From Candidatus Omnitrophica bacterium 4484_213 (GTDB lineage: Bacteria; Omnitrophota; 4484-213), in the NCBI GenBank assembly GCA_002085025.1, contig MZGK01000012.1, forward strand, positions 1 through 41,985: a DNA stretch of 41,985 nucleotides, written 5' to 3'. The position numbers and the translations under genes were made by a program. The notes below the pieces were generated by a model. That model made no database searches and was not told where the DNA came from. It saw nothing but the letters and a program-made list of their open reading frames with translations. Position 1 is the first letter of the stretch. Every line of letters starts with the position of its first letter. Below are positions 8,223-41,895 of this stretch, piece by piece.

Positions 8223-8485
8223 GTATTATACACCTTTTCCCCTTTCTTGACAACAAAGAAAAATCCGAGTATCATAAATGAAACTTATCCCGACATATCG
8301 TCGGGATGTTAGCTAAATTTCCCAGCACTAATTTTTAAGACCCAGGTTTAATCTACGGATTAAACAAACATTATAGCTTCAAACAAAGCAATTGCTGATT
8401 TCTATGAAAATTAGTGCTGGGTTCAATTCGCCTAATTTATCTTTGTCCAGAAACTTCGGGATTCGCTAAATTACAGGCTTACTGA
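8223..8485. other. Divergent intergenic region
   Basis: Lies between the minus-strand phosphorylase and the plus-strand Gfo/Idh gene. It holds a TCCCGAC/GTCGGGA dyad (8288-8307) and the first copy of the CCCAGCACTAATTTT inverted-repeat element (8321-8421). No convincing promoter for either gene was found by eye and no ORF is supported. Confidence 0.5.
8321..8421. repeat. Family D element, 15-bp terminal inverted repeats (copy 1)
   Basis: CCCAGCACTAATTTT (8321-8335) and AAAATTAGTGCTGGG (8407-8421) are perfect inverted repeats around a 71-base interior, which itself has a GTTTAATC/GATTAAAC dyad. A shorter relative with the same ends follows groES. The layout is that of a small non-coding mobile element or MITE; no clear target duplication is visible. 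Confidence 0.65.
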
Positions 8486-11425: not shown

Positions 11426-11520
11426 CCTCCTTTCCTTACTCGCGAAGCGAGAGCCGAAGGAGCCGAAGTTCCCCGTAGGGGAACTGAGGATAGGAAATCT
11501 GCAAAGCAGATTTCCGCTTT
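11426..11520 (-). repeat. Family B modular hairpin repeat carrying the panD ribosome binding site
   Basis: Same order as at tsf: CTCGC-gaa-GCGAG, AGCCGAAG, GTTCCCC-gta-GGGGAAC, CTGAGGATAG, then GAAATCTGC-aaa-GCAGATTTC. On the minus strand it ends in AAGGAAAGGAGG, 5 bases before the panD ATG. Confidence 0.8.
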
Positions 11521-11527
11521 TGTTTTT

Positions 11528-11642
11528 CCTTTCCTTACTCGCGAAGCGAGAGCCGAAGCCCGCCTACGAGCGTAGGCGGGCTGAGGATAGAGATTTGTGA
11601 AGCAAATCTCGCTTTTATCTTCTACCTTACCGCTTTTATCTT
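11528..11642 (-). repeat. Second, tandem family B repeat after birA
   Basis: Shares CTCGCGAAGCGAG, AGCCGAAG and CTGAGGATAG with its neighbour, but the variable hairpins differ: CCCGCCTACG-agcg-TAGGCGGG and GAGATTTG-tgaa-CAAATCTC. A short direct repeat (twice TTATCTTCTACCTTAC) joins it to the end of birA, which appears truncated at this border. Confidence 0.75.
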
Positions 11643-33197: not shown

Positions 33198-33231
33198 TAT
33201 AACTAAACTTTGATTTTCATCAAAGTTTAGA

Positions 33232-33295
33232 AAATCCCAAATCGCAAATCTCAAATCACAAGTAAATTCCAAATCTCAATGAGCGAATGACCAAA
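33232..33295. repeat. Heptamer array CAAATCN upstream of coaX
   Basis: AAAATCC, CAAATCG, CAAATCT, CAAATCA and CAAATCT in seven-base steps (with one break). It is the reverse complement of the GATTTGG units at the left edge of the window. Confidence 0.7.
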
Positions 33296-33339
33296 ACAAT
33301 TATTTAAAAACATCTCTTTTTTTTATTCTTCATTTTGGC

Positions 33340-33403
33340 CATTGGAATTTGGTGCCTGTGATTTGTTTGCTATTTGGTACTTGGTGCTTGGAATTTCTCA
33401 ACT
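33340..33403. repeat. Heptamer array TTGGTGC/TTGGAAT at the 3' end of the recombinase gene
   Basis: TTGGAATTTGGTGCC, ATTTGGTACTTGGTGC and TTGGAATTTCTCAAC. It encodes the last 11 or so residues of the recombinase (EKFQAPSTK) and the region after the stop. The border word CTCAAC is the same as at the left window edge. Confidence 0.7.
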
Positions 33404-34218: not shown

Positions 34219-34410
34219 CTTAAAAACCGTTTTTTCTCTTTTTCTAATGCAGAAGATACCCCGTGTCCGGGATAGATAGTTATGGAAGGTTTGAGAGGAT
34301 CATATTTCAACCATCGATAAAGCAAGGCATTTATTTTATTTTCGATTAAAAGATGTGATAAAAGACAGACAATCACTGCTTCAACTTCTGAATTATTTAG
34401 GTCTGGGTAT
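34206..34410 (-). pseudogene. C-terminal fragment, possibly metallo-beta-lactamase-fold
   Basis: An open frame without a good start reads LYPDLNNSEVEAVIVCLLSH, then NALLYRWLKYDPLKPSI, TIYPGHGVSSALEKEKKRFL and stops 13 bases inside the recombinase gene. The IYPGHGxSxxLExEK pattern resembles the C-terminal part of MBL-fold hydrolases, but no other motif is present. It may be a remnant or a chance frame. Confidence 0.35.
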
Positions 34411-34660
34411 AAATTTTTCGCAAGGTTTTTGCAACGTTTCCTTTGAGGGCCTCCTTTTTTGCGGTCTTTCCTCTTGAGGAATTTAAGGCCTCCAGAGCCC
34501 CTTCTAAAGCCTTTTGCTTAAAGCGGTCGAGATCTGTAGGCCAAATATCGTGCTTTCGGCAGTGCTCTGAGGTATCAACATCGCCTTTGAGGCTCTCTAT
34601 AACCAGATCTAGCTTTTCTTGGGCTGTGGAAAGGATAACTACTCTCTTGCCTCTATACAA
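34397..34660 (-). CDS. Small helix-turn-helix-like protein (transposase OrfA-like)
   Basis: 87 residues. The middle (IESLKGDVDTSEHCRKHDIW, then DLDRFKQKALEGALEAL) resembles the DNA-binding N-terminal part of IS3-type transposase OrfA proteins, followed by a lysine-rich helix. It starts 22 bases inside the end of the histidine kinase gene. No catalytic DDE partner or inverted ends are visible, so it is either a domesticated regulator or a relic. Assignment is tentative. Confidence 0.45.
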   Translation of the reverse strand: MYRGKRVVILSTAQEKLDLVIESLKGDVDTSEHCRKHDIWPTDLDRFKQKALEGALEALNSSRGKTAKKEALKGNVAKTLRKIYTQT

Positions 34661-36831
34661 ATAGGCAGTTGAACTGTAAATGTAGAGCCTTTATCGGGTT
34701 CGGATTGGACTGCAATTGAGCCATTGTGTTTTTCAACAATTGTCTGACAGATGGAAAGACCAAGCCCAGCTCCTTTTCCTACATCCTTTGTAGTGAAAAA
34801 TGGGTCAAATATCCTCGAGATTATCTTCTTTGGTATACCCGCTCCTTCATCTTTAACCTCAAGTTTTATCCAATCATCACTTTTTGAAAGGAATATATAT
34901 ATCACACCGCTTTCTTTTATCTGCTTGATAGCGTCCTTTGCATTTAAGATTAGATTTGTCGCCACTTGCTCTAATTCATTATGGTTGCCCCGAACAATAT
35001 AAGTATCTTCTTTGACCTCACTGATTATTTTAACATTCTCTTGCTCTAATTGATAGCCGAGAAAAGAAATTACCTTCTTGAGAACCTTTAACAAATCTAT
35101 CTCAGGTACTTCGCTGGATTCTAATGGCTTTCTGGCATAGGTCATCAATTTCTGAACTATAGTCCGGCAACGCTTGCTTGCTTCCTCAATGAGTTTGAGA
35201 GATTCTTTTGCATCAGCATCAAATGAGTCAGCAGTCGCTAAGAGCATCTGAGTATTGGCCAGTATTGCCGTCAAGGGGTTATTTATCTCGTGAGCCACGC
35301 CCCCCGCCAGCGTACCTACAGTAGCCAATTTTTCTGCCTGAATAAGTTGTTTTTGCACCTCTACTAATTTCTGCGTCCTCTGCCGCACCTGCTGTTCTAT
35401 GTTTTCATAAAGTAAGGAATTAGAGATAGCGATGCTGGATTCGTTTTTCAATGTTGTCAAGAAATGAAAATCTACCGCGCTATAACGTCTTAAACTTGCC
35501 TTTTTGCCCAAATTGATTATTCCTAATAATTTTTCATTTAAAACTAAAGGTACAACCACAATGGCCTGGGTTAGCTCAAGATAATCCTTCGCTTTTTCTC
35601 TGACAGGAGCATACACAGGGTCTATATCAATGAATTCTCTATAGACAACTTTATCATTTTTAGCTAACCATTGCAAAAATGAATCCTCGCCTTCTAATTC
35701 TACAACCTTCTTAGATTTATTTACTATATCTTGCCTGTCGGCAGACAGATTTGCTAATTTGTAATTCCTTTTGTCCTCACTATAAATAAAGATATCAATT
35801 CGTCGGGGATATAAGGTTCCGGCAATCGTGTCCTCTGTGCGCTGGATGAGTTTATTAATTCCTTTTAAATGAATTAGGTCTTCTACAAATCTGCTTGAAA
35901 TATCTTCTAACTTATACCTTCCTCTCTGAAAAAAATGGTCTATTTTGGGCTGGATTATGCGCAGATAAAAAACCAGAATTAAGAAATTAACTGCCCAAAA
36001 TCCAAATTGCAATGTAGTAGTTTTTCTTATATATGGGAAGAACCATCTATAGAGAAGAAAAATGGGAATAATTATAAAAGAGGAAGACAAAATCCACAAC
36101 GCCGTTTTGTGAATAACGGTTTCTATATCAAATGTTTTGTACCTGATAATAGAATAAGCCAAAAGGCAGGTAAAAATAAAGATAGGGATAAAACCAAATG
36201 GATAAACAGATACTGTCCAGATTTTGGCGATATAATCAACCGATGCTATAAACCCGATGATAAAACTGATAATTATCGTTCGAATCTGAGTCTTTTTTAT
36301 CGCTATTTCTTCCCGTTTATAGGCAAACCATAGGTTAGCCTGAATTACAAGAAATAAGGTAAAATAAAGAAACAGAAAAAAGAAATTTAATGGCTTATAA
36401 TGCGGGTAATATCCCCAAAAATAGAGTTTCGGCGATGTAATAAATTTATCGGTTGTAAGAGCTAATAGATAAAAAATGTATGATAAAACAAAAACGCCAA
36501 TTACAAAATTGCGTTGCTCTTTTAAACGATCGGACGAAACCACTGAAAACAAATATGCACTTGGCATTATACTGACTACGCCGAAAAATGTGAAGTATTT
36601 ATACCAGAGTAGAGCTATCTGCGGATTAGCCGAGAAATAAACAAAACCTATTGTCCAAAGCCATAAACTCAAACTTGCGCAGAGGAAAAAAAATGCCACA
36701 TTCTTTATTGACTTTTTCGCTTGGAGAAGTATGAATAAACCTATTGAAAAAATAAGTATGCTCACCACCATCACTGGTATAGCGTGTGGATTATAGCGAT
36801 AATTTGATAAATTGAATAATTGCTCAAGCAT
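34639..36831 (-). CDS. Membrane histidine kinase, 7TM sensor-GAF-HisKA-HATPase
   Basis: Sensor kinase without a response regulator beside it. The N-terminal ~240 residues hold seven membrane helices of the histidine-kinase 7TM type, then a further two helices (about 245-300), a GAF-like domain (about 320-480), a coiled coil (EQQVRQRTQKLVEVQKQLIQ) and the kinase core: H-box GGVAHEINNPLTAIL, N-box NLILNAKDAI, G1 VKDEGAGIP, F-box FDPFFTTKD and G2 GAGLGLSI. 730 residues. Its start overlaps the acyl-ACP reductase stop by 8 bases, so it is coupled to the lipid genes and may sense a membrane or lipid signal (inferred). Confidence 0.9.
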   Translation of the reverse strand: MLEQLFNLSNYRYNPHAIPVMVVSILIFSIGLFILLQAKKSIKNVAFFFLCASLSLWLWTIGFVYFSANPQIALLWYKYFTFFGVVSIMPSAYLFSVVSSDRLKEQRNFVIGVFVLSYIFYLLALTTDKFITSPKLYFWGYYPHYKPLNFFFLFLYFTLFLVIQANLWFAYKREEIAIKKTQIRTIIISFIIGFIASVDYIAKIWTVSVYPFGFIPIFIFTCLLAYSIIRYKTFDIETVIHKTALWILSSSFIIIPIFLLYRWFFPYIRKTTTLQFGFWAVNFLILVFYLRIIQPKIDHFFQRGRYKLEDISSRFVEDLIHLKGINKLIQRTEDTIAGTLYPRRIDIFIYSEDKRNYKLANLSADRQDIVNKSKKVVELEGEDSFLQWLAKNDKVVYREFIDIDPVYAPVREKAKDYLELTQAIVVVPLVLNEKLLGIINLGKKASLRRYSAVDFHFLTTLKNESSIAISNSLLYENIEQQVRQRTQKLVEVQKQLIQAEKLATVGTLAGGVAHEINNPLTAILANTQMLLATADSFDADAKESLKLIEEASKRCRTIVQKLMTYARKPLESSEVPEIDLLKVLKKVISFLGYQLEQENVKIISEVKEDTYIVRGNHNELEQVATNLILNAKDAIKQIKESGVIYIFLSKSDDWIKLEVKDEGAGIPKKIISRIFDPFFTTKDVGKGAGLGLSICQTIVEKHNGSIAVQSEPDKGSTFTVQLPICIEARE

Positions 36832-38395
36832 TTCTTGCAGCTTTCTTTATTTCCTCAATATTCTCTTCTTCGAGTGAGCGACTAGTCCAGAAAAATGGGG
36901 CTAACTCAAAACCATGTTTAGCCGCTAACCCTCTCATCTCATCCATTTTCTCCAAGCTTATATTACCTCTGCCATAGCTATAGTTCTCAAAACGGTGTTC
37001 GAGTGCCAATATTATCACTTCGGAAAAACATCCATAGGAAACATCAGCGGAAGGTAAACCCATATCAATACCTGTATCTATAGGCGTCGGCAAAGAAGCA
37101 AGCCCCCCTGAAAATACCAAAATATCTTTTCTATTTGTGAATGTGTAAGAAATATTCTTAGGGTAAGCAAGGTCGCAAATAATTGAACCAGGTTTAAACC
37201 ACTCTAAATTGAGTATTGAAGAAGAAGTATTTGCGGCGGCTATAACTATATCTGCACTTCGGACTGCTTCTTTATTATCAGTGGTCGCTTCAATCCTGGC
37301 TTTGTGTTTTTTTCTGAGTTCGCTCCTGAGAAGAAGAAGGTTAGATTTTGTCCTGCCGGTTATAGTTACCTGTTTAGCCTTCTCGGACAATGCCCGAGCG
37401 CAAGCGCTGCCGATATCGCCAGTGCCACCAACTATAGTTATCTTTAGGTCTTTTAATTCTCTATTTAAAAGCCGGGCTGCTCTTTCCACTCCGTCAACCG
37501 CTAATACAGCAGTGTAGGTATTACCGGTAGTAATCGGTATATCCACTTCTTCACTTATCTGGTGTCCAAGCCGCTCTCCGACCATTGAAGTAAACCCTCC
37601 TAATGTTACAATACCTACCCCCTGCTTTTCTGCTAGCTTACAGGCACGAACTACTTTTGAATAAACAGCATAGATATCCTTGGATAACATATCAGGTATA
37701 AACGTACAGACTATAAAACAACCAAAGGTTGCATCTCCGGTTTTGGACCTAAATTCTTTCATCTCGTACATCTTAAAAGAAGGAGTTAAATTAAATAGAC
37801 TATTCAAAAATTCTCTAGAGGGCGGTTTAAAATTTGGATTCAGCATCTTCAAGCACCTTTCCAGGTGTTTAAAATTATAGAAATGTCCCAAAATGCCAAA
37901 CCCAGCTATCTTTTGGCTATCTCCGCGTTTGAAACTAGCATATCGGATAGATATTAATCGACGTTCCAATGCCTCTAATATGGCTTCAAAATTCTTACTA
38001 AGCAATCTCTTCACATACGGCTCGGCAAAATCCTTGATTGCCGGAATACCTACTTTTAAATAAACATTTACAATAACCTCAATCCCTTCAGGATGGTCTT
38101 GAAATCTCCATTCTCCCTTAAACTCCTCCAAATCCCCCTCTATTGCCTTAAAATAAATAGCATTTCGTCTAAGCGCAAGGAGATCTTCTTCTACCCAGTT
38201 TATTGGAACTTTATCAATCTCTACCCGCCACTTAGTGGTCATTCTATGCCTGGTTTTTTGAATCACAGATACCTCTTTAACACAAGCTATATATGTGGGT
38301 AATTCCCAAACCTTGGTTATAAAGCGAATTACCCTCCATTTCTGAGCTGGTATAATCTTTGAAATTTTTATTTCTATTAAATCTTTATCCTTCAT
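36824..38395 (-). CDS. START/SRPBCC domain fused to acyl-ACP reductase (fatty aldehyde-forming)
   Basis: Two-domain protein, 523 residues. Residues about 1-150 look like a polyketide-cyclase/coenzyme-Q-binding (SRPBCC) lipid-binding domain. Residues about 160-523 match the cyanobacterial long-chain acyl-ACP reductase: FGILGHFYNFKHLERCL, LGGFTSMVGE, ITTGNTYTAVLAV, the NADPH site IVGGTGDIGSACARAL, ICDLAYPKNIS, FSGGLASLP and SYGCFSEVI with the cysteine that carries the acyl group. It would reduce acyl-ACP to aldehyde. It overlaps plsC by 11 bases and the kinase by 8. No aldehyde-using enzyme is in the window. Confidence 0.85.
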   Translation of the reverse strand: MKDKDLIEIKISKIIPAQKWRVIRFITKVWELPTYIACVKEVSVIQKTRHRMTTKWRVEIDKVPINWVEEDLLALRRNAIYFKAIEGDLEEFKGEWRFQDHPEGIEVIVNVYLKVGIPAIKDFAEPYVKRLLSKNFEAILEALERRLISIRYASFKRGDSQKIAGFGILGHFYNFKHLERCLKMLNPNFKPPSREFLNSLFNLTPSFKMYEMKEFRSKTGDATFGCFIVCTFIPDMLSKDIYAVYSKVVRACKLAEKQGVGIVTLGGFTSMVGERLGHQISEEVDIPITTGNTYTAVLAVDGVERAARLLNRELKDLKITIVGGTGDIGSACARALSEKAKQVTITGRTKSNLLLLRSELRKKHKARIEATTDNKEAVRSADIVIAAANTSSSILNLEWFKPGSIICDLAYPKNISYTFTNRKDILVFSGGLASLPTPIDTGIDMGLPSADVSYGCFSEVIILALEHRFENYSYGRGNISLEKMDEMRGLAAKHGFELAPFFWTSRSLEEENIEEIKKAARNA

Positions 38396-38981
38396 CTATC
38401 ATCTCCGCAATTGTCCTTCTAATTTTAAGAGTTCCTTCCTGCAAATATATATCATCAATTATATCTTCAAATTCTTTTAACAGATATATTGGCTTGCCGA
38501 TTTTTAGTTTTAGGCTTCGGAATAACTTAGGAAATTTAGCTCCTCTGGGAAGTGCTTCATAGGTGCCTAAAATTGCGCAGGGAACAATTGGCCTACCGGT
38601 TTTTATTCCCAATAGGGCTACTCCTCTCCTGAACTCCCTGAGGCGCCCGTCAAAGCTGCGCGTTCCTTCCGGAAATAAACCCACATTCTTATTTTTGGTC
38701 AATAAATAAATTGCCTTTTCTGATGAACTGCCCGTTGGTAAACTTTCCGTTCTCCGCAAAAACCATCTTAGCCAAGATATATGGTAAATTCCTCTTGTGG
38801 CCAACCAGTAAACCTTTTTTGGAATAGCCGCTCCAACAACCAAAGGATCTAAAAAGCTACTGTGATTAGCGACTACTATAAAATTGGTCTTTCGGGGAAG
38901 ATTTTTTAGCCCCTCTACCTTGAGCTTAAAGAATAACTTAAATATAACTATAAACACTATCCGAAATATCCAATACCACAT
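38385..38981 (-). CDS. plsC: 1-acyl-sn-glycerol-3-phosphate acyltransferase
   Basis: Adds the second acyl chain in phospholipid synthesis at the inner membrane. Motifs: VANHSSFLDPLVVG (catalytic HxxxxD), FLRRTESLP, GLFPEGTRSFDGRLREFRRG and PIVPCAILG. One N-terminal membrane segment (IFRIVFIVIFKLFF). 198 residues, typical for small PlsC. No Shine-Dalgarno is evident before the ATG. First gene of the operon with the reductase fusion and the kinase; all stops and starts overlap. Confidence 0.93.
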   Translation of the reverse strand: MWYWIFRIVFIVIFKLFFKLKVEGLKNLPRKTNFIVVANHSSFLDPLVVGAAIPKKVYWLATRGIYHISWLRWFLRRTESLPTGSSSEKAIYLLTKNKNVGLFPEGTRSFDGRLREFRRGVALLGIKTGRPIVPCAILGTYEALPRGAKFPKLFRSLKLKIGKPIYLLKEFEDIIDDIYLQEGTLKIRRTIAEMIDEG

Positions 38982-41736: not shown

Positions 41737-41814
41737 TGGGGTGGGCAAGCGGGATTGAACCGCCAACCTTCTGAGCCACAGTCAGACGCTCTAACCAATT
41801 GAGCTATGCCCACC
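41737..41814 (-). tRNA. tRNA-His (anticodon GTG)
   Basis: Complete cloverleaf on the minus strand: acceptor GTGGGCA pairs with TGCCCAC, extra G at position -1 as in tRNA-His, D-loop AGCTCAATTGGTTAGAGC, anticodon stem TCTGA/TCAGA with loop CTGTGGC (anticodon at 41777-41779), T-arm GGCGGTTCAATCCCGCT (mostly paired), discriminator C and an encoded CCA end. Confidence 0.95.
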
Positions 41815-41895
41815 TTTCCTTGCTCGCCAGTTCCTTTTAAGGGCGATAGAGAAGTTGCCCCTAATTATACCTGAAGGCGAGAGCCGAAGTTCGCA
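41815..41895 (-). repeat. Family B-like block upstream of tRNA-His
   Basis: TTTCCTTGCTCGCC, the 44-base module CCTTTTAAGGGCGATAGAGA... (41833-41876) and GGCGAGAGCCGAAG. The module gives TATAAT on the minus strand (41869-41864), about 50 bases before the tRNA, so it could carry the tRNA promoter. Confidence 0.65.

Follow-up and report, generated by a model that had tools for sequence, protein, structure and literature searches.

An SRPBCC–reductase fusion of the acyl-ACP reductase superfamily and its linkage to 7TM histidine kinases with exchanged sensor parts in Omnitrophota

Introduction

What might a bacterium make with an acyl-ACP reductase (AAR)-like enzyme that carries a START-like domain at its N-terminus, and why should the gene for this enzyme overlap with that for a membrane-embedded histidine kinase? 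The question is raised by an operon of Candidatus Omnitrophica bacterium 4484_213, a member of the Omnitrophota, which are widespread, largely uncultured bacteria with small genomes. The whole stretch of DNA that was analyzed (41,985 nucleotides, the window in the following) corresponds to contig 31 of an Omnitrophota MAG of 0.93 Mb, here termed G000. An initial annotation read the operon as a pathway for a fatty aldehyde or special lipid with its own sensor and considered an alcohol, wax or ether-lipid precursor as its product. A limited literature search retrieved no paper on the fusion, or on AAR in connection with kinases or autoinducers.

Results

The fusion protein and its operon

The operon and its immediate downstream neighbor contain the following features:

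38385..38981, minus strand: plsC, PlsC-like 1-acyl-glycerol-3-phosphate acyltransferase (198 aa; Pfam Acyltransferase PF01553, 3e-23)
36824-38395, minus strand: whole fusion ORF (523 aa)
37946..38395, minus strand: SRPBCC/START-like domain of the fusion, residues 1-150 (PF03364; AF2 model; PDB 2d4r)
36827..37912, minus strand: AAR-like acyl-thioester reductase domain of the fusion, residues 162-523, elsewhere given as 162-520 (matches to 6jzq, PigE and TIGR04058)
37412..37429, minus strand: GGTGDI, NADPH-binding loop, fusion residues 323-328 (aligned with AAR GATGDIGSA)
37028..37030, minus strand: codon of the predicted acyl-accepting cysteine C456 of the fusion (aligned with AAR C294)
34639-36831, minus strand: 7TM histidine kinase ORF (730 aa)
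35932..36831, minus strand: N-terminal 7TM sensor of the kinase, which comprises about residues 1-300 and is the segment that is exchanged (PF16927 HisKA_7TM, 2e-10; mosaic; helices)
34642..35412, minus strand: catalytic part of the kinase, HisKA and HATPase_c, residues 474-730 (PF00512, PF02518; 97-98% conserved in G001)
34397..34660, minus strand: transposase-like fragment with an HTH, immediately following the kinase gene (87 aa; PF01527 HTH_Tnp_1, 1.8e-5)

The ORF coordinates bear out that plsC, the fusion gene and the kinase gene overlap by 11 and 8 bases, and the motifs NHSSFLD and EGTRS are present in the PlsC sequence. A chance reading frame can be ruled out for the fusion, as the full-length protein is kept at 42-70% identity across genomes of the phylum. 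Its N-terminus, initially annotated as a lipid-binding-like domain, indeed belongs to the SRPBCC/START-like helix-grip proteins by both profile and model fold: residues 24-138 match Pfam Polyketide_cyc (PF03364, E 5e-11) with 43.3 bits, above the curated gathering cut-off of 23.4, and an AlphaFold2 model of residues 1-154 (mean pLDDT 81) has PDB 2d4r as its best match (TM 0.82-0.86). The C-terminal part aligns with the cyanobacterial AAR 6jzq (E 3e-31), and in this alignment the cysteine of the YGCFSEV motif, C456, falls on the acyl-accepting C294 of AAR and GGTGDIGSA on the NADPH loop, just as had been read from the sequence. Fold, catalytic cysteine and NADPH-binding loop thus place the protein in the AAR superfamily. 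A full-length model also has 6jzy and 6jzq as top Foldseek matches; with a pLDDT of 54 from a four-sequence alignment it is a low-confidence model and serves as support only.

The term cyanobacterial-type, used at first for the reductase, holds as a statement of family resemblance and goes too far otherwise. Identity is only about 25%, the match to TIGR04058 (4e-47, 161.2 bits) lies below the curated cut-off of 449.7 bits, and by profile the fusion is closer to the reductase half of PigE (NCBIfam NF053554; 7e-52, 176.8 bits), where the match covers that half only and does not reach the cut-off of 850. As the fusion is neither a TIGR04058 equivalog nor PigE by curated profile, it is, judged by its sequence, a distinct member of the AAR superfamily.

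Distribution of AAR-like genes and conservation of active-site residues

A search with an AAR-domain profile found AAR-like genes in 110 of 384 sampled Omnitrophota genomes. When the annotated loci around the matches were fetched, 68 AAR genes proved to be fused to SRPBCC, and a separate SRPBCC gene lies directly upstream of 15 further ones. Thirteen of the 384 genomes, including that of the window, carry a divergent second type, AAR2. In the window's genome it is encoded at L058 2959-4263 (G000:C20; 434 aa, cysteine in VFGCLAES), accompanied by a receiver and a 7TM kinase of its own. In the plasmids surveyed outside the Omnitrophota, the annotated matches were only PigE-like reductase-aminotransferases and separate SRPBCC proteins.

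These data bear on the possibility that the AAR fold is vestigial and that the fusion acts in vivo in lipid binding or regulation, not as a reductase. Scores below the equivalog cut-offs would agree with this, as would the replacement of the cysteine by serine or another residue in 12 of 117 Omnitrophota AAR domains; many of the domains lacking it belong to second AAR copies in multi-AAR clusters. Against it stand the cysteine in the other 105 domains, the retention of E459 and of G291 in 116 domains each, the nearly invariant glycines of the substrate and NADPH regions, and the presence in the clusters of enzymes suited to aldehydes, for example a class III aminotransferase matching the other half of PigE. 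We consider a vestigial reductase very improbable.

AAR-like genes are linked to 7TM kinases across the phylum

The genetic environment of the AAR genes is highly consistent with respect to the kinase. An AAR cluster was termed informative if a kinase was found or if enough downstream sequence was available to judge. In 96 of 105 such clusters, a 7TM kinase is encoded on the same strand at most six genes downstream, immediately next to AAR in 65 cases; the other nine have none nearby. For other genes of the same loci the corresponding figure is 22 of 129 (Fisher p 8e-33), a background that is itself kinase-rich. The kinase gene is often followed by one for a receiver. Where the relatives G002/L059 have this receiver gene, the window has a transposase-like fragment and xerC. 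The initial proposal, a pathway to a fatty aldehyde or special lipid that has its own sensor, agrees with this picture and gains strength from the phylum-wide linkage, with the aldehyde chemistry itself being predicted from sequence.

In the window kinase, the N-terminus matches HisKA_7TM (PF16927; 41.1 bits, cut-off 28.6), the C-terminal end is a standard HisKA/HATPase_c module (PF00512 and PF02518), and weak GAF matches occur besides. Hydropathy indicates a sensor part of membrane helices that are joined by loops no longer than 23 residues and lack an extracellular domain. Because of this architecture, the ligand is likely to be hydrophobic and perceived in the membrane.

The genes between AAR and kinase vary among clusters. 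They encode a class III aminotransferase together with a GNAT or formyltransferase protein, an HpnA-type SDR with a long C-terminal region and an HxxxDG-like motif, a GMC oxidoreductase, a radical SAM/B12 protein, or an AONS-family enzyme together with an ICMT-type methyltransferase. The AONS gene of one cluster fits BioF/Kbl models better and has a weaker match to the model for alpha-hydroxyketone autoinducer synthase. The aminotransferase scores best against the profile for the other half of PigE; following the PigE precedent (thioester to aldehyde to aminotransferase), such clusters could yield fatty amines and, where GNAT or formyltransferase is present, the corresponding amides.

Upstream, RND efflux genes are present in 11 fetched loci (10 if the duplicate L032/L126 is counted once). 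Two AcrB-type pump genes precede the fusion gene in L040, L036, L047, L095 and other loci of family f2, accompanied by a membrane-fusion protein gene wherever the locus reaches that far, and may export the product. ORFs of 70-90 aa for an excisionase-type HTH_17 protein (L100 12856-13092 etc.) lie just upstream of plsC/AAR in several loci and are candidates for a local regulator.

This gene content also suits the main rival to the reading developed below, namely that the product of the cluster is a lipid with a structural role or a place at the cell surface (a fatty alcohol, a wax, an ether lipid or an amino lipid) and that a homeostatic kinase senses the cell's own membrane without any cell-cell signaling, polymorphism arising from phage or predator pressure as at O-antigen loci. 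PlsC, FabF/FabG/FabZ and desaturase-like genes in many clusters agree with it, as do the membrane-embedded sensor without an extracellular domain and the direct tie of one kinase to each AAR gene in most clusters. On the other hand, the outputs are usually stand-alone receivers or second kinases and not a dedicated DNA-binding regulator. Taking into account also the second site described below, we judge a surface lipid with a homeostatic sensor to be rather unlikely.

The operon is a mosaic of exchanged and conserved segments

A genome of the same genus, G001, shares 92-97% DNA identity with the alignable regions of the window; its GroEL is 98% identical. Along the operon, identity varies: it is about 97% in hflKC and 98% at the 5' end of plsC, falls to about 72% in the plsC core, returns to about 95% in the plsC 3' end and the SRPBCC part, drops to about 65% in the AAR domain and about 45% in the sensor and middle part of the kinase, and is again about 97% in its catalytic part. 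The exchange reaches about kinase residue 472 (around base 35416). The PlsC proteins are 82% identical with a divergent core, and the reading frames stay open throughout. Chimerism of the MAGs is an unlikely cause, since several independent loci with open frames are affected.

The more distant G002 (mostly 83-90% DNA identity) carries the sensor type of the window (87% DNA, 84% protein). The AAR and sensor of the window are nearest to those of another family, f47 (73% and 61%, respectively); for G001, the closest AAR comes from f40/f16 and the closest sensor from a different f47 genome. Different families therefore share the alternative types. Matching of plsC core alleles was also tried and rejected, as it gave no consistent nearest type. 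Short dispersed repeats, MITE-like or REP-like, are found in the window at 8321-8421, 11426-11560, 33220-33400 and 41810-41890, with many copies over the G001 and G002 contigs.

With regard to the product, the joint exchange of enzyme or tailoring genes and the sensor half between close relatives points away from the making of wax or ether lipid in bulk and instead to a pair of signal or product and receptor.

A second site beside pgsA

Beside pgsA, G000 has genes for a receiver, AAR2 and a kinase, G002 for a receiver, a methyltransferase and a kinase, and G003 for a methyltransferase and a kinase. The kinases of G000 and G002 are 25-38% identical before residue 240 and 77-90% after it, and PgsA is 86% identical. 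The sensors of the methyltransferase-linked kinases of G002 and G003 are 32-60% alike, and the assemblies of G000, G001 and G004, within their extent, lack the methyltransferase of this site. The simplest reading of these sequences is that an unrelated enzyme replaced the synthase and that the sensor changed with it while the kinase was kept. A methyltransferase-only module in the place of AAR2 is hard to fit with a bulk membrane lipid.

SAM methyltransferases, one of them with a PilZ domain, often precede a further 7TM kinase (L059 7861-8865, L057 3583-4620, L032 12121-13485), and a distant relative is encoded on a Pseudanabaena plasmid beside a kinase and a response regulator. The kinase-adjacent methyltransferase of Omnitrophota may be PhcB-like.

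Sensor type and tailoring class

The association was counted for 21 kinases from clusters with a classified tailoring gene. For 15 of the 21, the closest sensor outside the kinase's own family comes from a cluster of matching tailoring class, a number never above eight in label shuffles; for the kinase domains of the same proteins the nearest neighbor is in the same tailoring class in 0 of 20 cases. In family f2, SDR-type sensors from three loci in three genera are 65-70% alike; against sensors of the same genus whose loci lack the SDR gene the figure is 29-41%, and kinase domains group by genus. Pairs at the same-genus level that do not differ in tailoring diverge in the ordinary way (e.g., kinase 84-90%, sensor 62-82%), the window/G001 pair being the exception, and pairs with a tailoring difference have kinases of 85-87% and sensors of 34-40% identity. 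That the AAR domain would follow the sensor better than the kinase had to be rejected, as overall its correlation is higher with the kinase (r 0.83) than with the sensor (r 0.43) and the domain as a whole goes with lineage more than with sensor type; the claim of co-variation was therefore narrowed to tailoring genes and specific loci. At the level of sequence, sensor type varies with the synthesis genes, strongly for the tailoring genes and weakly for the AAR domain itself.

Could mere linkage account for this pattern? The tailoring gene adjoins the 5', sensor-coding half of the kinase gene, so that co-transfer is physically expected and one tract can carry both without functional coupling; recombination tracts might simply happen to span synthase and sensor ends, and the kinase would sense something unrelated to the pathway. 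The generally rapid evolution of kinase sensor domains and the closer tie of AAR to the kinase are in line with this. Exchange boundaries, however, lie near the sensor/kinase junction at several loci, the adjacency of AAR and 7TM kinase is kept phylum-wide despite quite different intervening genes, and the sensors of pairs differing in tailoring are far less alike than those of the other pairs at similar kinase identity. Linkage as the sole explanation is accordingly improbable in our view.

Discussion

We therefore return to the reading that we regard as probable: the operon encodes a product synthase and its cognate receptor, and a polymorphic lipid-derived signal or product is read by the cognate 7TM kinase. 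On C456, the AAR domain would receive a fatty acyl group (or a related one) bound to ACP as a thioester and would use NADPH to reduce it to the aldehyde, while the SRPBCC domain probably holds or delivers the hydrophobic chain. PlsC in the window, or other tailoring enzymes elsewhere, would turn the aldehyde into a lineage-specific hydrophobic molecule, which the adjacent kinase would detect in the membrane and answer by phosphorylating a stand-alone receiver. Synthase/tailoring cluster and sensor would constitute alternative specificity types that are swapped between relatives, and because of this exchange the molecule is most likely an autoinducer-type signal with pherotypes. Weighing against this reading are the nine informative clusters with no 7TM kinase in the vicinity, the absence of a receiver gene beside the window kinase, the plsC core without a matching allele type and the closer overall tie of the AAR domain to the kinase.

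Whether this extends to a hitherto uncharacterized class of chemical communication found throughout the Omnitrophota appears evenly balanced to us. In such a class, signals derived from fatty aldehydes would be made by AAR reductases together with tailoring enzymes that can be interchanged, membrane-embedded 7TM kinases would read them and define pherotypes through sensor halves that can be swapped, and AAR and methyltransferase synthases would replace one another at some sites. If the proposal is true, synthase, receptor and specificity-determining segment are named together, AAR-like reductases join the enzyme families known as signal synthases, and the ligand becomes testable in a heterologous host via the naturally occurring sensor chimeras. 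The gene between AAR and kinase serves as a guide to the chemistry of each type.

Comparison with known systems

With the cyanobacterial long-chain AAR (TIGR04058, PDB 6jzq/6jzy) the fusion shares fold, acyl-accepting cysteine, NADPH loop and reductase length. It differs in its low identity and sub-threshold score, in being fused to SRPBCC and in its association with a kinase and tailoring genes. An alkane pathway through ADO was rejected because the annotated loci and their neighborhoods showed no ADO gene. In the CqsA/CqsS and LqsA/LqsS systems, too, the synthase of a fatty-acyl-derived signal adjoins its kinase, the difference being that the core enzyme of the Omnitrophota module is AAR-like.

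PigE of prodigiosin (MAP) biosynthesis, a thioester reductase joined to a class III aminotransferase, provides the best NCBIfam profile for the reductase half, and its aminotransferase half is the next gene in some Omnitrophota loci. PigE, which possesses the conserved Cys296, reduces a thioester to an aldehyde, and the aminotransferase then converts the aldehyde (PMC8341465). Unlike PigE, the Omnitrophota halves are separate genes and the reductase is SRPBCC-fused and kinase-linked; a prodigiosin-type pathway was rejected, as the PigE halves alone recur in the loci and no other prodigiosin genes were noted.

For the polymorphism, ComP of the ComQXPA system offers a precedent with its variable N-terminal membrane domain, conserved cytoplasmic kinase and several pherotypes (PMC4008528), and in Vfm it is the biosynthesis genes that are polymorphic among strains and set signal specificity (PMC9306890). 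Neither has an AAR synthase; ComQXPA uses an isoprenylated peptide and Vfm NRPS-type genes. In the PhcB/PhcS system (3-OH PAME / 3-OH MAME), a fatty-acyl-derived signal made by a methyltransferase is read by a kinase of the same operon, and strains are grouped by their PhcB and PhcS sequences (PMC8578825). By analogy with comQXPA, vfm and phc, the exchange pattern found in Omnitrophota is the signature of a polymorphic synthase-receptor system.
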